Made by a program: the position numbers and the translations under genes
Notes under the pieces: model-generated
Told to the model about the DNA's origin: nothing
Database searches by the model: none
Seen by the model: the letters and a program-made list of their open reading frames with translations, nothing else
NCBI RefSeq assembly: GCF_000246855.1
Contig: NC_016609.1
Coordinates: 992,001 to 1,056,000, forward strand
Source of the DNA: Niastella koreensis GR20-10
GTDB lineage: Bacteria > Bacteroidota > Bacteroidia > Chitinophagales > Chitinophagaceae
DNA: 64,000 bases
Direction: 5' to 3'
Shown: positions 56,039-64,000 of the stretch, piece by piece
Position numbering within the stretch: the stretch's first letter is position 1
Layout of the letters: every line of letters starts with the position of its first letter

Positions 56039-56935
56039 TTAGTGAGAAAAACCATCCCTGAATGCTGCAGGTGTTTGGCCGGAATGCTTTTTGAAAAATT
56101 TGTTAAAGTTGGTCGTTTCGTCGAAACCGATATAATGGCTAATGGTTTTAATAGGATTTTCGGTATGCACCAGCAGCCGTTTTGCTTCCAGCAAGACGCG
56201 TTCATCCAGCAATTGTTTGGGCGTTTTCCCCATCATGATATGCGTTATATGGGTTAACACTTTAGCCGAGATAAAAAGTTGATCCGCGTAAAAAGCAATT
56301 CCTTTTTCTGTTCGGAAATACTGTTCAAGCAGTTCCTTAAAGTTAATAAAGTATTCAAAGTTTGGACCTTTCATACGGGTGCCTTTTCCCTGTTTCAATT
56401 GTTCCCTTTCTGCTTCCAGCAGAAAGCTGTACAGGTATTTCCTTAACATCGGAGCATGAAAAGTATCGGCCAAATGATGTTCTTCCTGTTGCATCCAAAG
56501 CCAGATATCTCGCAACCGATTAGTGCCCATAATGGGGATGGGGCCTTGGTTGGCCGTAAAATCATTAAATAACGGGCTGCTTTGCAGAAAACGGTGATCT
56601 TGTTCCGTTTCACAAAAGAAAGTATCGGTAAAAAGTAATGTACTTGTTTCAAAAGTATTTTGCTGATCGAAAAACTGCACAGCATCCTTACGCACAAATA
56701 TAAAAGAATCGGGTTGCAGATGAATCAGATGGAAGTCGACCGTATGAATGGGGGTGCCATTTTTAAACCAAAAGATTAGGTAAAAAGATGCGCGATGTGG
56801 CCGACGCAGGTTGGATTGTGTACGCGCATAGTGATCGTTTATAGGAATAAATTCAATCCCTAAAGAAATATCTTCCTTAAAACTTAACTTCAGGATGTCC
56901 TGTTTAGCCGCCATGTGACGAATATACAAAATCAT
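56039..56935 (-). CDS. AraC-family transcription regulator
   Basis: About 298 residues with a C-terminal pair of helix-turn-helix motifs of the AraC/XylS type: ISAKVLTHITHIMMGKTPKQLLDERVLLEAKRLL covers the first, followed by TISHYIGFDETTNFNKFFKKHSGQTPAAFR. The N-terminal cupin-like part (HTVDFHLIHLQPDSFIFV) should bind an effector. The start is uncertain: the frame stays open to 57148, but residues before the methionine at 56935 look non-coding, and another methionine at 56914 is also possible. It probably regulates the alpha/beta hydrolase gene downstream. Confidence 0.85.
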   Translation of the reverse strand: MILYIRHMAAKQDILKLSFKEDISLGIEFIPINDHYARTQSNLRRPHRASFYLIFWFKNGTPIHTVDFHLIHLQPDSFIFVRKDAVQFFDQQNTFETSTLLFTDTFFCETEQDHRFLQSSPLFNDFTANQGPIPIMGTNRLRDIWLWMQQEEHHLADTFHAPMLRKYLYSFLLEAEREQLKQGKGTRMKGPNFEYFINFKELLEQYFRTEKGIAFYADQLFISAKVLTHITHIMMGKTPKQLLDERVLLEAKRLLVHTENPIKTISHYIGFDETTNFNKFFKKHSGQTPAAFRDGFSH

Positions 56936-57198
56936 TCCGGTTCGATGTTTCGTTTGAGAAATGACACCGTATTGTTGCAGGTCTTGTGATAAAATTTCCA
57001 GGTGTCTCTTAATTATTTTGACGGATATAGATAAAAGTCTGACCAAAAGATAAAAGTTTCCGCCCGAAGTGGTCAATAAAGTAACATATTGCAAACAATT
57101 GGGCATTTTGATCAAACAATGGCGCATTTTGATCAAACTTTGTGGCATATCTCATTAAAGATGCCGCATTTAGGACTAACTATAAGGCATTTCGAACC

Positions 57199-57366
57199 AA
57201 CATTGGAGTAACCTGGATAAACATTGGAGTAACCTGGATAAACATTGGAGTAACCTGGATAAACTTTGGAACAACCTGGGTAAACATTGGAGCAACCCGG
57301 TATAACTTTTGGACAACCCTGCACAACATTGACTCATAAGTGCATAACATTGGAGCATAAGTTGCC
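57199..57366. repeat. Decayed 21-bp tandem repeat, about eight units
   Basis: The first three units (57199, 57220, 57241) are identical, beginning AACATTGGAG and ending CCTGGATA. Units at 57262, 57283, 57304, 57325 and 57346 diverge step by step but keep the AACATT/AACTTT start and 21-bp register. The length equals two helical turns or seven codons, and both strands stay open (NIGVTWI heptads on the plus strand, YPGYSNV on the minus). It lies in a 686-bp AT-rich gap (56936-57621) that otherwise shows no gene; 57400-57600 is only AT-rich. Confidence 0.8.
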
Positions 57367-57621: not shown

Positions 57622-58320
57622 TTACCATAGCCTGTAGCCGAGTTTGAGACCCAGGGTTATATTGGGATACGTATGATGACCGACCTCCCGCACCTGGATC
57701 CCCGTCATGCTGGTATTGGCATATTTTTCATTATAAATAATACCATCATATTCCTGATCAGACAGATCGGTAAAGGAATTAAAATACCGGATACCGATCC
57801 CTGCGAACCATTCCAGTATCCACCTTTTACGAAAGTTCTCCACTTCGCCCATTTTAATGTTAACGCAGTTTATGTACCGGGTCATCCCATACGTTTTATA
57901 ATACCCATTACCTGCAGACACAATCGTGTCGCTTAAATGATAGTGTTCCTGCTTATATTGATATTCCAGCGCAATGAACAATCCATTCATGATCTTTTGG
58001 CGGTTGAAATAATATTTTATACATGGTTTAATGGCAAACCCGGTTACATTTTCCTTGTAAAACGCCGTTCTCAATAAAGAGTATAAGGCGCCCTCTACGG
58101 AGATCGAAAAATGTTTATACACTTTTACATCAGTACTTATGCGTAAAGAAGGATAATCCAGGGCATCTATAAGCGCAAAGGGAGATAAAGAAACATAGAA
58201 TTTGTTATCCACATTTTCGTAGCCATACTGACCAAACGAATTTTTGTTTGCCACAATAAGCAGGATCGTACATACAATAGAAAGGGTAAACGGCTTCCGC
58301 GGAAATCGGGTTAAAGTCAT
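57622..58320 (-). CDS. Putative outer-membrane beta-barrel protein
   Basis: A 232-residue exported protein (signal peptide ending near NSFGQ, residue 31) with alternating amphipathic strands (KHFSISVEGALYSLL, GLFIALEYQYKQEHYHL, RWILEWFAGIGIRYF) and a C-terminal ITLGLKLGYRLW typical of small Bacteroidota beta-barrel or DUF3575-like proteins. The function is not recognised. It is on the same strand as the RiPP cluster and 234 bp downstream of the exporter gene, so it could be co-transcribed, but nothing in its sequence ties it to peptide export. Confidence 0.6.
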   Translation of the reverse strand: MTLTRFPRKPFTLSIVCTILLIVANKNSFGQYGYENVDNKFYVSLSPFALIDALDYPSLRISTDVKVYKHFSISVEGALYSLLRTAFYKENVTGFAIKPCIKYYFNRQKIMNGLFIALEYQYKQEHYHLSDTIVSAGNGYYKTYGMTRYINCVNIKMGEVENFRKRWILEWFAGIGIRYFNSFTDLSDQEYDGIIYNEKYANTSMTGIQVREVGHHTYPNITLGLKLGYRLW

Positions 58321-58554: not shown

Positions 58555-60750
58555 TTATGCACCGAGTTCAAGTTGGTTTTTAACCAAATGAAAATATTTA
58601 TCTTTTAATTGTACAAGCGAATCGTGATCGCCAGATTCAACAATGCGTCCCTGTTCCAGTACAATGATCTGGTCGGCGTTCTTTACTGTACTTAACCTGT
58701 GGGCAATAATAACCACCGTTTTGCCTGCAAAAAATTGATGCAGGTTATTCATGATCTTTCGTTCGTTATTGGCATCGAGGTTACTGGTAGCTTCATCCAG
58801 GAAAATGAACCCGGGGTTTCGGTAAATAGCCCGGGCAATAAGGATCCGCTGTTTTTGACCACCACTGATATCAATACCTGTTTTTCCTATTTGTGTGTGA
58901 TAACCCAGCGGCAGTTTTTCGATAAACTCATCTATACAGGCCAATGCGGCTGCTTTCATTACTTTTTCCATGTCCGGCTTTTCATCGGCCAGCGCAATAT
59001 TTTCGGCATAGGTGCCACTATAGATGTATCCATTTTGTAACACCACCCCACACATAATTCTCCATACATCCGGTTCCAGAGTTCTTAGCTGATGGTTATC
59101 GAGGTAAATATCGCCAACGGTAGGGTCATATATAGCCAGCAATAATTTTAACAGGGTTGTTTTACCGCTGCCGCTTGCGCCTACTATTGCAGTAATTTTG
59201 CCTACCGGGATTGTTATATTAATATCATGCAGTACAAGCGGGTTAAAACTACCTTCGTATTTAAAGGAGAGATTTTGAATTGTAATTGCTTTTGCAGGAG
59301 GGGAGGGCAGTATTTTACTTTTGCCTACATGCTCGTCTTTTAAACGCTGAATTTCTTCTAACCGGTCGAATGATAACCTGGCATCCTGTAAGCCCCTGAT
59401 TGTATTAATCAGGTTATCGATCGGGCTGTTTAACTGGCCCAATATAAAGCTGATGGTCATCATTACTCCTAAAGTCATATGGTTGTGAATGACCAGCCAG
59501 GCACAGAAGGCAGTAATAAGAATGTCTTTGATCTTATTAAAAAAATTTGCTCCTACCAACTGATAATAGTTCAGGTATAAAGACCTCAGGTTGATGGTAT
59601 TCAGTTTCCTTTGTAGTTTTTCCCATTGATTGATCTTGTTGGTATGTGCATTGTTGATCTTTATTTCAGGCATTTCTGTAATCAGCTCATAGATATTGTT
59701 CCTTGTTTCTGCAGCTACAGAAAAACGGGAATAGTCAAGCATTTTGCGACGATCTAAAAAAAGAATAGTCCATAGTATGCTCATACTGCTTATCCCAAGG
59801 AACATATAGAATGATGAAGCATTGTATAAATACAGCATCACGGAGAAAATAACAAGATTTACAAACGACAGCGTCAGCTCAAGGCTGTGATGGGTAAGAA
59901 AACTTTGTATGCGGTCGCTGTCATCCATGCGAAGCATCAGGTCGGCATTGATTTTTGTATCGAATATTTTCAATGGTAACCTGATCAGCTTTTGAAGGTA
60001 ATTAACCAAAAACTGTACGCTTACTCTAAAATTTATCTGCATCAGTAAAATGGTGCTGATGCTATCGGCAATTACCTTGCTTGAAAAAACCACTACCTGG
60101 GCAATAAGCAGGCTGAAAACGATATGCATATTCCTGCCCTGTACGCCTTCATCTATCATTTTCCTGAAAATACCCGGGAAAAACCAGGTACATACCATGG
60201 CAATGCATATGAGTATTAAAGCCAGTAAAGATCTTTTTTTATCGCCCTGCACAATGTTTCTGAAGAGTTGACCAAATTTCGACAGGCTTTCCCATTTTCG
60301 ATATGGAACCGGTTCCTTTTTATAAAATGCATCTGTTGTTTCAAGCAGCAGCGCTACACCGGTGCTTTCTTTGCCCGTCCATTGTTTGGCAAACACTTCC
60401 TGCGACAGGCATATTTTGCCAAACGAAGGATCGCTGATATAATAGAAAGTGTTTTTCCTGGTTTGTTTTATCTTATATAAAACCACATAATGTTCCTGCC
60501 GCCAAAACAGGATGGCGGGTAAAGGAATTTCAACTATTTTTTCTATAGGGAATTGCAGCGGCAGGGTTTCAAATCCCAATCTGCCTGCGCCATCTATGAT
60601 ATCCTGTAATGAAACGCCTAAACGGGTAACCCCACAAAACTCTTTCAGTTCGGCCAAAGTATACTTTTTGCCGTAACTGGCGGCGATCATTCTCAGGCAG
60701 GTAGGTCCGCAATCCCTTGCTTCGAGCTGATAATAATGAGGAAAAGCCAT
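58555..60750 (-). CDS. C39-peptidase-containing ABC exporter (PCAT) of the RiPP cluster
   Basis: A 731-residue exporter that cuts leader peptides at double-glycine sites and exports the core. The N-terminal C39 peptidase has the catalytic Cys14 in EARDCGPTCL, His87 in QEHYVVLY and Asp107 in SDPSFG. A six-span ABC membrane domain (about 165-440) and nucleotide-binding domain follow, with Walker A GASGSGKTT, signature ISGGQKQR and Walker B FIFLDEATS. The ATG at 60750 lies 4 bp after the radical SAM stop codon, so the two are coupled. A TTG at 60768 would add six residues and is less likely. No HlyD-type adaptor is seen in the window. It should process the six GG-leader precursors upstream. Confidence 0.93.
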   Translation of the reverse strand: MAFPHYYQLEARDCGPTCLRMIAASYGKKYTLAELKEFCGVTRLGVSLQDIIDGAGRLGFETLPLQFPIEKIVEIPLPAILFWRQEHYVVLYKIKQTRKNTFYYISDPSFGKICLSQEVFAKQWTGKESTGVALLLETTDAFYKKEPVPYRKWESLSKFGQLFRNIVQGDKKRSLLALILICIAMVCTWFFPGIFRKMIDEGVQGRNMHIVFSLLIAQVVVFSSKVIADSISTILLMQINFRVSVQFLVNYLQKLIRLPLKIFDTKINADLMLRMDDSDRIQSFLTHHSLELTLSFVNLVIFSVMLYLYNASSFYMFLGISSMSILWTILFLDRRKMLDYSRFSVAAETRNNIYELITEMPEIKINNAHTNKINQWEKLQRKLNTINLRSLYLNYYQLVGANFFNKIKDILITAFCAWLVIHNHMTLGVMMTISFILGQLNSPIDNLINTIRGLQDARLSFDRLEEIQRLKDEHVGKSKILPSPPAKAITIQNLSFKYEGSFNPLVLHDINITIPVGKITAIVGASGSGKTTLLKLLLAIYDPTVGDIYLDNHQLRTLEPDVWRIMCGVVLQNGYIYSGTYAENIALADEKPDMEKVMKAAALACIDEFIEKLPLGYHTQIGKTGIDISGGQKQRILIARAIYRNPGFIFLDEATSNLDANNERKIMNNLHQFFAGKTVVIIAHRLSTVKNADQIIVLEQGRIVESGDHDSLVQLKDKYFHLVKNQLELGA

Positions 60751-60754
60751 AGTA

Positions 60755-62059
60755 TTAATCGAAATCAACCAAATCCTTTATCTTTTGCCGGACCACTTCG
60801 TTTTTTTTGTTTTCATCATGGTCGAAAATACAGTACTCTTCGCCTTTTGCTATGTACTCTACAGCATGTTGCGAACAGCCGCCATTGCATACGGGCAATA
60901 GTTTACAGGAGAGGCAGGGTTTGTTTTTGAATTTAATGTCCATCCTGTTTTCCAGGCTTCCGTTTTCCCAGATTATTTCTCCGCCCTCATTAATGTATCC
61001 ATCTCTTTTAAAGGTGGTAAAATCACGGGCGGTACATTTAAATACATCGCCATTGTAATTGATAACGGCGCTGTTTTTCTTATCGGCATAACATGAGTTG
61101 CGTACATTATCCATACTCAGGTTAGAGTTAACGGTAAAACCGGCTTTCCTGAATTTGTCTATCTGCGCTGAAATAAAACCTTCCTGCTGCGGTACATGGT
61201 CCTGCCATACGCGGTGAAAATCGAGCATCAGGAATTGTCTTTCGCGCTGGTTAAGCGGTATAAGATCATCAATGATCTTATGACAATTTTGGATGTTCGT
61301 GTGTGTGTAGTTGATCCGTAACCTGATGAAAATTTCATGTTTCAGCATCAGCAGCACATTCTCTATGATCTTTTCATAGGAGCCACGGGTAGATGAAACA
61401 TATCGAACAGTATCGTGTTCTTCACCATATCCGTCGAGGGTTATCTGTAAGGCGGTTACATTGTTCTTCTTAAATACATCTACCATTTTCTGGTTGATCA
61501 GGTAGCCGTTGCTGGTAAAATTGATGCCCCGCTCAATTTGTTTTTCATCCGATACCTTGTTGAAATGATTCATAATAGGCAGTACAATGTCGTAAAAGTA
61601 AAGCAGGGGCTCACCGCCGAACCACGAAAGGTTAAAGCTTCTGATCTTTTCATTATGCACTATCTGCGTGGTTAAAAAGGTGTTCACTCTTTCGATGATC
61701 TCTTCACTCATCCTTGAATTTTTCACATGCGTTTCGTAACAATACCAGCATTTGAAATTGCAATTCATGGTTGGATTAATAGTGAGGTGATAAGTGCTTT
61801 CATTAAAATCAATGGCATAACGAAGTTGTTTTATTTTTTCCACTTCATCTGTTTCATTTTCTATTAAAAAACCATTTTCTTTCATTGCCTGAAAAAGGCT
61901 GGGATGCACTTCTTCCAGGTTATCTATGCCTTCGGCCCTGGCCGCTTCGATCAGGTCTTTTAACATCGGCTCTAAGGCTAACAGCCCGTTGCTGTAGGTA
62001 TTGAACATAATATAATGCTCATCAAAAGGAAGGATCGAGTTGAATTGCGAGTATTTCAT
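60755..62059 (-). CDS. Radical SAM/SPASM peptide maturase
   Basis: A 434-residue enzyme with the radical SAM cluster motif MNCNFKCWYCYE (Cys100, Cys104, Cys107) and a C-terminal SPASM domain that binds auxiliary iron-sulfur clusters: Cys382-x2-Cys385-x5-Cys391-x3-Cys395, then Cys410, plus an earlier cysteine in FKCTARDF. The GGEPLLYF motif and TSNGYLI follow the core. Residues 1-85 could be the leader-binding (RRE-like) region. Such enzymes form thioether, carbon-carbon or other crosslinks in ribosomal peptides. It starts 34 bp after the sixth precursor and ends 4 bp before the exporter. The cysteine-rich precursors make thioether (sacti- or ranthipeptide-type) crosslinks the first hypothesis, but the chemistry is not established. 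Confidence 0.92.
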   Translation of the reverse strand: MKYSQFNSILPFDEHYIMFNTYSNGLLALEPMLKDLIEAARAEGIDNLEEVHPSLFQAMKENGFLIENETDEVEKIKQLRYAIDFNESTYHLTINPTMNCNFKCWYCYETHVKNSRMSEEIIERVNTFLTTQIVHNEKIRSFNLSWFGGEPLLYFYDIVLPIMNHFNKVSDEKQIERGINFTSNGYLINQKMVDVFKKNNVTALQITLDGYGEEHDTVRYVSSTRGSYEKIIENVLLMLKHEIFIRLRINYTHTNIQNCHKIIDDLIPLNQRERQFLMLDFHRVWQDHVPQQEGFISAQIDKFRKAGFTVNSNLSMDNVRNSCYADKKNSAVINYNGDVFKCTARDFTTFKRDGYINEGGEIIWENGSLENRMDIKFKNKPCLSCKLLPVCNGGCSQHAVEYIAKGEEYCIFDHDENKKNEVVRQKIKDLVDFD

Positions 62060-62093
62060 TGCATTAAATTTGAAACAATCAGGTAGGTTGTTA

Positions 62094-62297
62094 TTACTGT
62101 TTTACGCCGCAGCCGGCTACACAATTGCCACAGTTGGCCTTTGAACAATTGTTGGAGCAATCGCCGCCAATGCAATTATTTACGGGATCGGTTACACCGC
62201 CAATTACCAGTGCATTGGTGCTTAAAACGGCAAAACCACCTGTTAGCTGACCTGAACTTATTTCACGGATCTTTTGTATTAATTTTCTCTTTTTCAT
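62094..62297 (-). CDS. RiPP precursor peptide 1 (six-Cys, GG leader)
   Basis: A 67-residue precursor, nearest the maturase gene. Leader: KKRKLIQKIREISSGQLTGG with the first double glycine at residues 20-21; a second GG (33-34, VIGGVTDP) precedes the core. Core: six cysteines, each in an NC, DC or GC pair, spaced C-x4-C-x3-C-x4-C-x2-C-x3-C, ending GCGVKQ. All six precursors share the GGF site, the DP-x-NNC start and the NCGNC-x3-C end. Seen: GG leader, Cys pattern, tandem paralogues, adjacent maturase and C39 exporter. Inferred: cleavage, crosslinking and export. Among the six it alone has Thr in place of Glu/Asp before GG. Confidence 0.88.
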   Translation of the reverse strand: MKKRKLIQKIREISSGQLTGGFAVLSTNALVIGGVTDPVNNCIGGDCSNNCSKANCGNCVAGCGVKQ

Positions 62298-62399
62298 ATA
62301 ACGTAGTTTAATTTGATATAAGATGCAAAACCCGTGTTGGCAGGCCCTGCATCATATTTTTTAACACCATAATAAAGTACAATGAACCGTACTAAGCTG

Positions 62400-62603
62400 C
62401 TATAGCTGGCCGCATCCCATAATACAGTTACCGCAATTGCCACCGTTGCAATTGTTGGTGGTGCAGTTTACCTTGCAATTATTAGTGGGGTCTTCAACGC
62501 CTCCAATGATCAGGCCATTGGTAGATGCCAGAACCATAAACCCACCTTCCAGTTTTCCATTAAGGATTTCCTGGAGTTTTTTTATCGGCTTATCTTTTTT
62601 CAT
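62400..62603 (-). CDS. RiPP precursor peptide 2 (six-Cys, GG leader)
   Basis: A 67-residue paralogue with leader KPIKKLQEILNGKLEGG and a second GG in LIIGGVEDP. The first core interval is one residue shorter than in the others (C-x3-C-x4-C-x4-C-x2-C-x3-C, with KVN in place of x-GG-x), and the tail is CGQL. It lies 102 bp upstream of precursor 1 and 48 bp downstream of precursor 3. The 102-bp gap has a small inverted repeat (AGTAC/GTACT) and is the longest between precursors. Confidence 0.88.
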   Translation of the reverse strand: MKKDKPIKKLQEILNGKLEGGFMVLASTNGLIIGGVEDPTNNCKVNCTTNNCNGGNCGNCIMGCGQL

Positions 62604-62651
62604 ACTGGTTATAGTTTTATAATTCTGCAGTTGTATTGCAGGAATACTTTA

Positions 62652-62855
62652 TTATTGTTTCACCCCGCAGCCTTCAACACAATTACCACAATTGCCGCCG
62701 TTGCAATTATTGGTGCATTTACCGCCATCGCAGTTGTTGGCAGGATCGGTAAGACCGCCAACAATAAGCGTATTTGCTTTCAGAATAACAAACCCTCCTT
62801 CAAGTTGTCCTTCTTTAATTTCCTGGATTGCTTTCAACCATTTTTCTTTTTTCAT
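62652..62855 (-). CDS. RiPP precursor peptide 3 (six-Cys, GG leader)
   Basis: A 67-residue paralogue with leader WLKAIQEIKEGQLEGG, a second GG in LIVGGLTDP and core spacing C-x4-C-x3-C-x4-C-x2-C-x3-C, ending GCGVKQ like precursor 1. The intergenic segment upstream (between precursors 4 and 3) is a copy of the one between precursors 6 and 5, which supports duplication of a gene pair. Confidence 0.88.
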   Translation of the reverse strand: MKKEKWLKAIQEIKEGQLEGGFVILKANTLIVGGLTDPANNCDGGKCTNNCNGGNCGNCVEGCGVKQ

Positions 62856-62870
62856 AATTGAATATTTAAC

Positions 62871-62910
62871 CCCTACTTTGTTTGATACAGGCTTTTCGGG
62901 AATGGCCTTT
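62871..62910. repeat. Intergenic repeat copy A between RiPP precursors 4 and 3
   Basis: About 40 bp, starting CCCTACTTTG and containing ACAGGCTTTTCGGGAA and GGCCT, is repeated with a few changes at 63398-63437. Both copies stand between precursor genes, which suggests segmental duplication, with conservation possibly due to a shared leader or processing element. Confidence 0.75.
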
Positions 62911-62925
62911 TGTATGTGGAATCAA

Positions 62926-63138
62926 TTATTCTTTGCTACCGCAACCCGTAACACAATTACCGCAGTTTTGACCGCTTCCGCAATTATTCGAAGGCACACA
63001 ATAACCACCATTGCAATTGTTGGCGGGCTCGCTTACGCCGGCGACTATTTTAACGTCGGCCTGCAGCACTATAAAGCCTCCTTCCAGTTGCCCATTGATG
63101 AGTTGGCAAAGCTGTTTTAGAATTTTACGCTTTTGCAT
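62926..63138 (-). CDS. RiPP precursor peptide 4 (six-Cys core, extra leader Cys)
   Basis: A 70-residue paralogue, the longest. The first GG is intact (NGQLEGGF), while the second site reads VAGVSEP, so only the first double glycine is shared by all six. The core spacing is expanded (C-x4-C-x5-C-x5-C-x2-C-x3-C) through PS and Q insertions, and Glu replaces the Asp of DP. The leader has an additional cysteine (Cys11, QLCQL) not found in the others. It tests which GG is the cleavage site and how far ring sizes may vary. Confidence 0.88.
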   Translation of the reverse strand: MQKRKILKQLCQLINGQLEGGFIVLQADVKIVAGVSEPANNCNGGYCVPSNNCGSGQNCGNCVTGCGSKE

Positions 63139-63170
63139 ATTCGATAATTTATTTCTTTACCCGGTGTTAT

Positions 63171-63380
63171 TTAAGCTTTAGTGCCGCATGCAAATACGCA
63201 ATTGCCGCAATTGCCGCCGCTGCAGTTATTCGTTTGGCACTGACCTCCCTGGCAATTATTGACCGGGTCGGTAACCCCGCCGATCAATAAATGATTTGTA
63301 GTCATAAGTACCACGAATCCTCCTTCAAGCTGTCCGGTTTTTAAGTCCTTTAACCGGCTGATCAGTTTTTGCTTTTCCAT
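63171..63380 (-). CDS. RiPP precursor peptide 5 (six-Cys, GG leader)
   Basis: A 69-residue paralogue with leader KLISRLKDLKTGQLEGG, second GG in LLIGGVTDP and core spacing C-x4-C-x4-C-x4-C-x2-C-x3-C. The last turn is FAC-GTKA, so Ala replaces the Gly before the final cysteine. It follows precursor 6 after 75 bp and precedes precursor 4 by 32 bp. Confidence 0.88.
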   Translation of the reverse strand: MEKQKLISRLKDLKTGQLEGGFVVLMTTNHLLIGGVTDPVNNCQGGQCQTNNCSGGNCGNCVFACGTKA

Positions 63381-63397
63381 CTTATAAAATTTATATC

Positions 63398-63437
63398 CCT
63401 ACTCTGTTTAAAACAGGCTTTTCGGGAAACGGCCTCT
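63398..63437. repeat. Intergenic repeat copy B between RiPP precursors 6 and 5
   Basis: Second copy of the element at 62871-62910. The central ACAGGCTTTTCGGGAA is identical, and the flanks differ at several bases. Confidence 0.75.
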
Positions 63438-63455
63438 GTTCGATGTATAAACGGG

Positions 63456-63656
63456 TTATTGAACACCACAACCTTTTACACAATTGCCACAATTGCCTGT
63501 ATTGCAATTATTGGTGCATACCCCTTCTTTGCAATTATTAGCAGGGTCATCTACACCTCCCACAATCAGTGCATTGGTTTTTATAACAATGAATCCTCCA
63601 TCAAGCTGACCCTCTTTTAATTCAGCCAGCTTTTGAATTAATGTTTTCTTTAGCAT
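63456..63656 (-). CDS. RiPP precursor peptide 6 (six-Cys, GG leader), first in the operon
   Basis: A 66-residue paralogue, the first of the row in transcription order. Leader TLIQKLAELKEGQLDGG, second GG in LIVGGVDDP, core C-x4-C-x3-C-x4-C-x2-C-x3-C ending GCGVQ. The region upstream (63657-63771) has a small hairpin (CCGAT/ATCGG at 63695-63708) and a T-rich stretch on the minus strand, so a terminator/promoter boundary may lie between it and the outer-membrane gene. Confidence 0.88.
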   Translation of the reverse strand: MLKKTLIQKLAELKEGQLDGGFIVIKTNALIVGGVDDPANNCKEGVCTNNCNTGNCGNCVKGCGVQ

Positions 63657-63771: not shown

Positions 63772-64000
63772 TCAATTGCTGGCCCTGCGTCTTATTTCAT
63801 CATTTGCGGCCCCTTTATTCCTGTTTCCTTTTAACTGTTTGTTACCAAAAATGTACCTGACTTTAAGTGATACAGATCGGTTGTAATAGTTGGTACGGGT
63901 AAAATTTTCTGCCAGCAGGCTGTTGGCATACAGGTGATTCTTATAAATTGAACTACCATTATACAGATCATTCACCATCAGATATAGTGAGAATTTCCTG
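63772..64000 (-). CDS. Outer-membrane beta-barrel family protein, C-terminal end (partial)
   Basis: The frame enters from the right edge of the window and gives about 75 C-terminal residues. Alternating strands (KFSLYLMVNDLYNG and NRSVSLKVRYIFGN) and the basic tail GNRNKGAANDEIRRR match the C-terminus of the outer-membrane beta-barrel protein family (OMP_b-brl_3, TonB-dependent-receptor-like) common in Bacteroidota. It lies 115 bp upstream of the RiPP precursors on the same strand, a place where such barrels could serve peptide export or uptake, but that link is only positional. Confidence 0.75.
   Translation of the reverse strand, partial: RKFSLYLMVNDLYNGSSIYKNHLYANSLLAENFTRTNYYNRSVSLKVRYIFGNKQLKGNRNKGAANDEIRRRASN

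Follow-up and report, generated by a model that had tools for sequence, protein, structure and literature searches.

What do six short tandem genes on the minus strand of Niastella koreensis GR20-10 encode, and what becomes of their products? The genes lie in a window of 64,000 nt, the whole stretch of DNA analysed here (NC_016609.1, positions 992,001 to 1,056,000), in a genome of one contig of 9,033,684 bases; among the related loci compared below theirs is labelled L019. They are followed by genes for a radical S-adenosylmethionine (SAM)/SPASM peptide maturase and a C39-peptidase ABC exporter, and preceded by a gene for an outer-membrane beta-barrel resembling TonB receptors. The first-pass annotation of this DNA had reported the span 58555..63656, which stops short of the barrel gene, and its reader missed that gene. 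The cluster proved genuine, and it is both conserved and under selection. Across Bacteroidota this set of genes is found again and, from its sequences, looks like an uncharacterised peptide family. Our answer, which is tentative and somewhat short of probable, is that precursors, maturase, exporter and barrel receptor form a four-part cassette for a family of secreted, crosslinked peptides. Gene content, gene order, conservation, covariation and fold similarity were observed directly.

The description of six tandem minus-strand precursor genes of 66-70 codons, with a shared leader and six-cysteine cores, was borne out by the open reading frames (ORFs) and their alignment, in which the peptides were 55 to 64% identical to precursor 1. 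Six cysteines were present in every core, and the leader of precursor 3 adds a seventh. On the leader side M1, K3, G16, L18 and G20-G21-F22 are invariant in all six; C-terminal to GGF the same holds for G34, P38, N40-N41-C42, N49-N50-C51, N55-C56-G57-N58-C59 and C63-G64. The NNC and NCGNC elements of the core motif as first described are thus invariant, but its DP-x-NNC reads EP in one of the six. Likewise, the GGF said to end the leader is invariant, but since a second GG (five precursors) or AG (one precursor) stands about 13 residues further on, the cut may fall at GGF or at this later site, and cleavage at GGF is one reading only. A degenerate DNA pattern for N-C-G-N-C had six matches in the window, one per precursor gene, against a mean of 0.00 in 100 dinucleotide shuffles. 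Searching the whole genome with precursor 4 at E values up to 10 returned these six genes only. Pairwise differences at codon positions 1, 2 and 3 were 0.32, 0.23 and 0.59, and synonymous variation was seen in 16 of the 17 invariant Asn, Cys and Gly columns; the precursors are under purifying selection as proteins.

The gaps of 34 bp between precursor 6 and the maturase and of 4 bp between the maturase stop and the exporter ATG were confirmed, as were the identities of the two proteins. The maturase matched the Pfam family Radical_SAM with 54.9 bits, and SPASM with 16 bits, below the cut-off of 21.5. The cysteines of the radical SAM and SPASM sites (C100, C104, C107, C323, C382, C385, C391 and C395) are invariant in 54 maturase sequences, and C342 and C410 nearly so. 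In the AlphaFold model (predicted local distance difference test, pLDDT, 89.5; predicted template modelling score, pTM, 0.87) the N-terminus runs strand-strand-strand-helix-helix-helix, and this domain, as modelled, resembles a RiPP recognition element (RiPP, ribosomally synthesised and post-translationally modified peptide). Foldseek placed 5why/5wgg first, with TigE, SuiB, anSME, ChlB and SkfB, enzymes of differing chemistries, also among the fold neighbours. A profile search of PDB sequences likewise gave 5wgg as best match (83.2 bits); both entries, which we take to be CteB, are titled for thioether bond formation. The exporter matched Peptidase_C39 (104.4 bits), ABC_tran (97.5 bits) and ABC_membrane (52.7 bits), and C39 exporters are established to cleave at double glycines. 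The cassette has the make-up of a radical SAM RiPP cluster in the broad sense: short precursors that have a leader in common, a maturase of the radical SAM/SPASM type that bears a recognition-like domain, and an exporter of the kind that removes leaders, the modification here being predicted. That this is a Bacteroidota cluster of that type, as first proposed, is well supported by Pfam, related loci and fold.

Searching 84,980 species genomes with the maturase (tblastn, E up to 1e-3) gave 176 stretches with a relative, a total in which the distant ones may be other radical SAM enzymes; 80 loci were kept, and 15 of these were excluded from the neighbourhood count for short flanks. In this genome-neighbourhood comparison, a check that the first-pass annotation had named, the gene set held together: of the 65 loci, 57 had a barrel gene next to the maturase on its strand (upstream in 51, downstream by no more than 5.5 kb in six), 60 had an exporter no more than 3.5 kb downstream of the maturase, and 64 a candidate precursor. 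Outside the cassette span only three barrel matches were found in 529 kb of the 80 loci; set against the 57 loci, this rules out the barrel as a chance neighbour. The barrel protein of the window matched OMP_b-brl_3 (PF14905) with 208 bits against a cut-off of 27, and its genome holds 13 matches to this family above 200 bits in 9 Mb, the one of the cassette included. Across 56 loci the pairwise distances of barrel and maturase were as tightly correlated as those of exporter and maturase (Mantel r 0.75 for both), although the barrel, with a median identity of 0.24 against 0.45 and 0.44 for the other two proteins, diverges faster. In L044 (Thermoflavifilum thermophilum) and L021, which belong to the same genus, a single maturase and a single exporter are accompanied by three barrel genes per locus. 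Differing precursor genes alternate with the barrels: two were found in L044, and L021 has three with leaders plus a leaderless one. We read this as peptide-specific recognition by the barrels. On a Flammeovirga plasmid the NCBI gene order is outer membrane beta-barrel family protein, hypothetical protein, radical SAM protein and peptidase domain-containing ABC transporter. The barrel of Pedobacter rhodius (L039), modelled from a 49-row alignment (pLDDT 84.7, pTM 0.75), can be read as four parts, a signal helix and a CPD-like domain followed by a plug and a barrel of long strands. Among solved structures the closest were receptors of the TonB-dependent type whose ligands are haem, siderophores and colicin or microcin. 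In the barrel of L041 an N-terminus that looked STN-like by eye was unsupported by Pfam.

Near the maturase relatives 206 precursor candidates were collected, L020, L022 and L025 being dropped as duplicates of L044, L065 and L095. After visual inspection 14 of them were discarded as chance ORFs, and 192 precursors from 88 loci remained; this filter misses some real precursors, for instance one of L021. A quick maturase tree of 79 rows split into 43 and 36 rows with a Shimodaira-Hasegawa-like approximate likelihood ratio test value of 98, and the label "NC-x-G-NC type" changed seven times on it, against 24 in shuffles. The clade analyses comprised 165 of the 192 precursors, 94 in the clade of the window and 71 in the other, the remaining 27 coming from loci outside the tree. 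Cores of the window clade have a median of four cysteines (range 2 to 7), with six in only 14 of 94. Six cysteines are therefore a local elaboration and not the mark of the family. NC-x-GG-NC occurred in 50 of these 94 precursors and 27 of 42 loci, and CX3N in 86 (shuffle mean 42.5) and 40 of 42 loci. In the other clade CX3N was found in 28 of 71 precursors (shuffle 23.3) and 12 of 36 loci, and N-X3-C in 54 of 71 (shuffle 27.4). CX3N and N-X3-C were chosen after seeing the data, and only a ranking of all 304 combinations of 19 residues and 16 offsets from Cys, with one core per 70% maturase cluster, was unselected. In that ranking Asn at -5 came first for the window clade (26.9 of 29 cores; 13.7 in shuffles) and Asn at +4 second (24.7 of 29; 11.9 in shuffles). 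For the other clade Asn at -4 was on top (18.0 of 26; 10.6 in shuffles), level with Asp at -6 and followed by Asn at -3. No residue is as consistently spaced from Cys as Asn, and each of the six window cores has at least one CX3N and at least one N-X4-C. The Asn-Cys spacing changes with the maturase clade, suggesting that the Asn/Cys pattern is read by the enzyme.

Profile searches against RiPP families, another check named at the outset, found no characterised class. With HMMER's filters in place, no NCBIfam family matched any of the six precursors up to an E value of 10. The best scores of the window maturase were to TIGR04463 (174.1 bits), Clo7bot (159), CefB (155.3) and the geopeptide maturase (132.3), under cut-offs of 525, 600, 600 and 400, and all families among the matches listed (25 of 54) were below cut-off. 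The models of these four families and of PapB matched 14 of 14 maturases of set A2. Precursors and maturase pass no curated family cut-off. The earlier view that the class is undescribed stands as far as the scans of NCBIfam and Pfam go; in the literature the cassette was not recognised in a search limited to open-licence papers, so that publication elsewhere is possible, and no title on the topic was found under the family model names among the matches listed. Excerpts of two papers describe related ground: a survey of Bacteroidales RiPP clusters with radical SAM enzymes, C39 exporters and outer-membrane proteins (PMC10352776), and a study in which no modified ranthipeptides were obtained (PMC9576775). 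Judged from the sequences, the cassette most likely stands for a RiPP family of ranthipeptide-like kind, as yet unnamed, that has an outer-membrane partner dedicated to it.

Several known systems come close. With SCIFF/CteB the cassette shares six cysteines in about 45 residues and the nearest solved structure by profile and fold, while its Asn/Gly-rich repeated unit, its multiple precursor copies and its barrel gene are unlike SCIFF. The maturase scored 60.9 bits to the SCIFF maturase model TIGR03974, far from the cut-off of 425. Together with the unmatched precursors this rules out a SCIFF assignment, and the resemblance noted at first is superficial. Freyrasin (PapA/PapB) also combines repeated Cys-X3-acceptor units with a radical SAM/SPASM maturase; according to an excerpt of PMC9413430, PapB links Cys with the Asp beta carbon in CX3D and tolerates separations of zero to six residues. 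The PapB model NF047865 covers residues 92-398 of the window maturase, with 106.5 bits against a cut-off of 340. Unlike PapA, the cassette has Asn for Asp (CX3D in 4 of 42 window-clade loci, CX3N in 40 of 42), and unlike the PapA/PapB system it has C39 export and an outer-membrane partner gene. For the predicted chemistry, a Cys-to-Asn thioether, streptococcal NxxcA is an example: there NxxcB makes the bond between Cys23 and the Asn20 beta carbon (excerpt of PMC8326336). An Asn acceptor is thus chemically precedented. Asn at -3 from Cys, the NxxC arrangement, was absent from the six window cores and was found in 57 of the 94 window-clade precursors against 54.4 in shuffles. The GG-leader precursor model TIGR04149 had no match in the six and matched one of 10 relatives scanned, at 15.5 bits under a cut-off of 25. 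PF14905 is among the families associated with graspetide loci in the available part of PMC8939145, and Bacteroidetes graspetide loci, as covered there, resemble the cassette in having RiPP genes with a PF14905 barrel gene nearby. No ATP-grasp gene lies between the barrel and exporter genes of the window, genes beyond being incompletely scanned. Filing under PapB, NxxC, TIGR04149, TIGR04463 or graspetides was rejected on cut-offs or motifs.

In the proposed pathway the maturase, judging from its fold, would bind the precursor leaders and, as the conserved spacing and its relatives suggest, would join Cys sulfur to a nearby Asn by radical chemistry, giving thioethers. Cys-to-Asn thioethers are our best guess for its product because Asn is so consistently spaced and by analogy with freyrasin/PapA (CX3D) and NxxcA (Asn). 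The exporter would cut at a double glycine and move the core across the inner membrane, and the co-inherited barrel may then act at the outer membrane, where it would recognise the peptide; its likeliest role is that of a receptor for recapture or sensing, as for a metallophore or a signal. If this is true, RiPP making would be tied to a dedicated outer-membrane partner, natural maturases would probably accept Asn with two alternative spacings, and a large peptide family would join the few radical SAM RiPPs characterised in the phylum. The barrel partner gene would also help to find out what such peptides do for Bacteroidota.

Several points weigh against this pathway. Crosslinks, receptor role and function are predictions from genes and models. 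The first Cys of all six window cores has no Asn at +4, -4 or -5, the second has Asn at +4 in only three of six, and CX3N read forward and N-X4-C read backward fit the window clade equally well. The covariation of barrel and exporter with the maturase is inflated by kinship of the loci. The fold matches of the barrel are modest, with template modelling scores of about 0.5, and no metal-handling or sensing partner was identified. Eight of the 65 loci lack a same-strand barrel match (L051, L052, L064, L070, L072, L089, L109 and L117). L064 and L072 have a match on the opposite strand, and in L109 a downstream barrel of 52.7 bits was overlooked by the neighbourhood search. L051, L052, L064 and L070 form one supported maturase clade with an ORF of 232-237 codons after the exporter, for which the Pfam match in L051 was CPD-like and below cut-off. 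A wider proposal, unlikely to hold in full, is a Bacteroidota-wide unnamed RiPP class in which Asn is the usual acceptor, two clades use two Cys-Asn geometries, and each peptide type has its own TonB-type receptor, the cell secreting a stapled peptide and taking it back. Locus counts, in which kinship is ignored, separated the clades by CX3N and N-X4-C (p 3.6e-9 and 1.7e-8) and did not separate them by N-X3-C (p 0.1), which speaks against the two-geometry part.

The spread of the maturase is patchy. At E 1e-30 it was found in 12 of 294 Chitinophagaceae genomes and 6 of 395 genomes of the class, the own genome and one other being counted twice. Rows of the tree come from many Bacteroidota families, with one from Ignavibacteriota. 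The nearest relative found was in Pedobacter rhodius, of another order (66%), while three of five congeners have the gene at 42 to 51% identity, which suggests horizontal transfer. A related cassette with five precursors (L121:1977-7031) is carried on a 30-kb plasmid of Rhizosphaericola mali, mobilizable by PLSDB typing. Such a distribution, with six diverged precursor copies and C39 export, would also be consistent with a bacteriocin system in which crosslinked peptides hit Bacteroidota relatives, with the barrel serving as immunity factor, as decoy or as entry route. Between the barrel and exporter genes of the window there are precursors and maturase only, with no separate immunity gene, and judged from the genes we regard this explanation as somewhat unlikely.

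The barrel may also be an outer-membrane export channel that continues the path of the C39 exporter. This would agree with the 53 of 65 loci that had no match to two adaptor-like queries, and the available text of PMC8939145, listing PF14905 with graspetide loci, predicts export by Bacteroidetes proteins related to TonB receptors. All 12 loci with an adaptor-like gene keep the barrel, an argument against a channel that is weak because the adaptor was named HlyD by eye and LanB hybrids, which number 11 among the 65 loci (LanB query confirmed by Pfam), make up most of these 12. Pfam searches of three adaptor-like genes gave nothing above cut-off, a null that made the export channel slightly more credible to us and the recapturing receptor slightly less. 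Three barrels beside one exporter in two loci, and the plug domain and importer-like fold of the modelled barrel, argue against a channel, which we judge decidedly unlikely. The maturase, for its part, might make a different change, such as epimerisation or carbon-carbon bonds, with the cysteines left free, in disulfides or binding metal. The five further fold neighbours are in line with this, and Cys-Asn-Gly-rich cores could bind metal; the covariation of maturase clade with Asn-Cys spacing, and a thioether maker as the nearest fold, make it improbable.

Coordinates of the features in the window
Feature	Position	Strand	Description and basis
Barrel gene, 3' end	63772..64000	-	TonB-receptor-like outer-membrane beta-barrel, PF14905
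Precursor peptide 1	63456..63656	-	66 aa; ORF and alignment
Precursor peptide 2	63171..63380	-	69 aa; ORF and alignment
Precursor peptide 3	62926..63138	-	70 aa; ORF and alignment
Precursor peptide 4	62652..62855	-	67 aa; ORF and alignment
Precursor peptide 5	62400..62603	-	67 aa; ORF and alignment
Precursor peptide 6	62094..62297	-	67 aa; ORF and alignment
Radical SAM/SPASM peptide maturase	60755..62059	-	434 aa; Pfam, conserved cysteines, AlphaFold, Foldseek
C39-peptidase ABC exporter	58555..60750	-	ATG at 60750; Pfam

The whole barrel gene encodes 807 aa (G000:C1:1055772-1058195, equal to L019:9773-12196) and runs from 63772 to about 66195 in window numbering, past the window end. An in-frame TTG shifts the listed ORF start of the exporter to 60768. 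Divergently upstream of the barrel gene is a response-regulator gene (Response_reg 101.3 bits; GerE 22.7 bits, under its cut-off of 23.5). In L019:4200-12500 a promoter scan gave 25 matches against 22.7 in shuffles and a terminator scan 7 against 7.6, in neither case an excess, and L019:4000-13100 had nothing at the gathering threshold in Rfam. The gene at 57622-58320 was set aside as a cassette member: it had no match in nine congeners at E 1e-20, and among 96 locus stretches only that of the window has it (E 1e-3). Two further copies are present in its own genome.

Other arrangements were recorded in the related loci. In L051 a caspase-like gene (PF00656; L051:5751-6596) is directly upstream of the precursors, and L052 has a like ORF (L052:5739-6584); both loci are from Chryseobacterium. 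In a Tannerellaceae metagenome-assembled genome (L109:9914-12406) a precursor-like leader, up to KGGF, continues in frame into the barrel signal peptide. Hybrid clusters of maturase, LanB-like, adaptor-like and barrel genes were found by tblastn in L024, L069, L077, L078, L083, L085 and L088, and further such hybrids in L094, L095, L096, L101, L103 and L107. L024, L069, L088 and L095 also have a flavoprotein-like gene; the hybrid precursors are cysteine-poor, and the hybrid checked with Pfam is L024. The genome of N. koreensis has three C39 matches. A second same-strand group in it (G000:C1:4771900-4780700, or L133:2919-11631) consists of a PF14905 barrel (336 bits) and the second of these C39 exporters, a methyltransferase gene lying between the two, and a small adaptor-like gene with nothing above cut-off in Pfam; no precursor was picked out there. 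A tandem repeat of period 21, with about five copies, lies at 57199-57318 of the window, between the genes 56039-57148 and 57622-58320.

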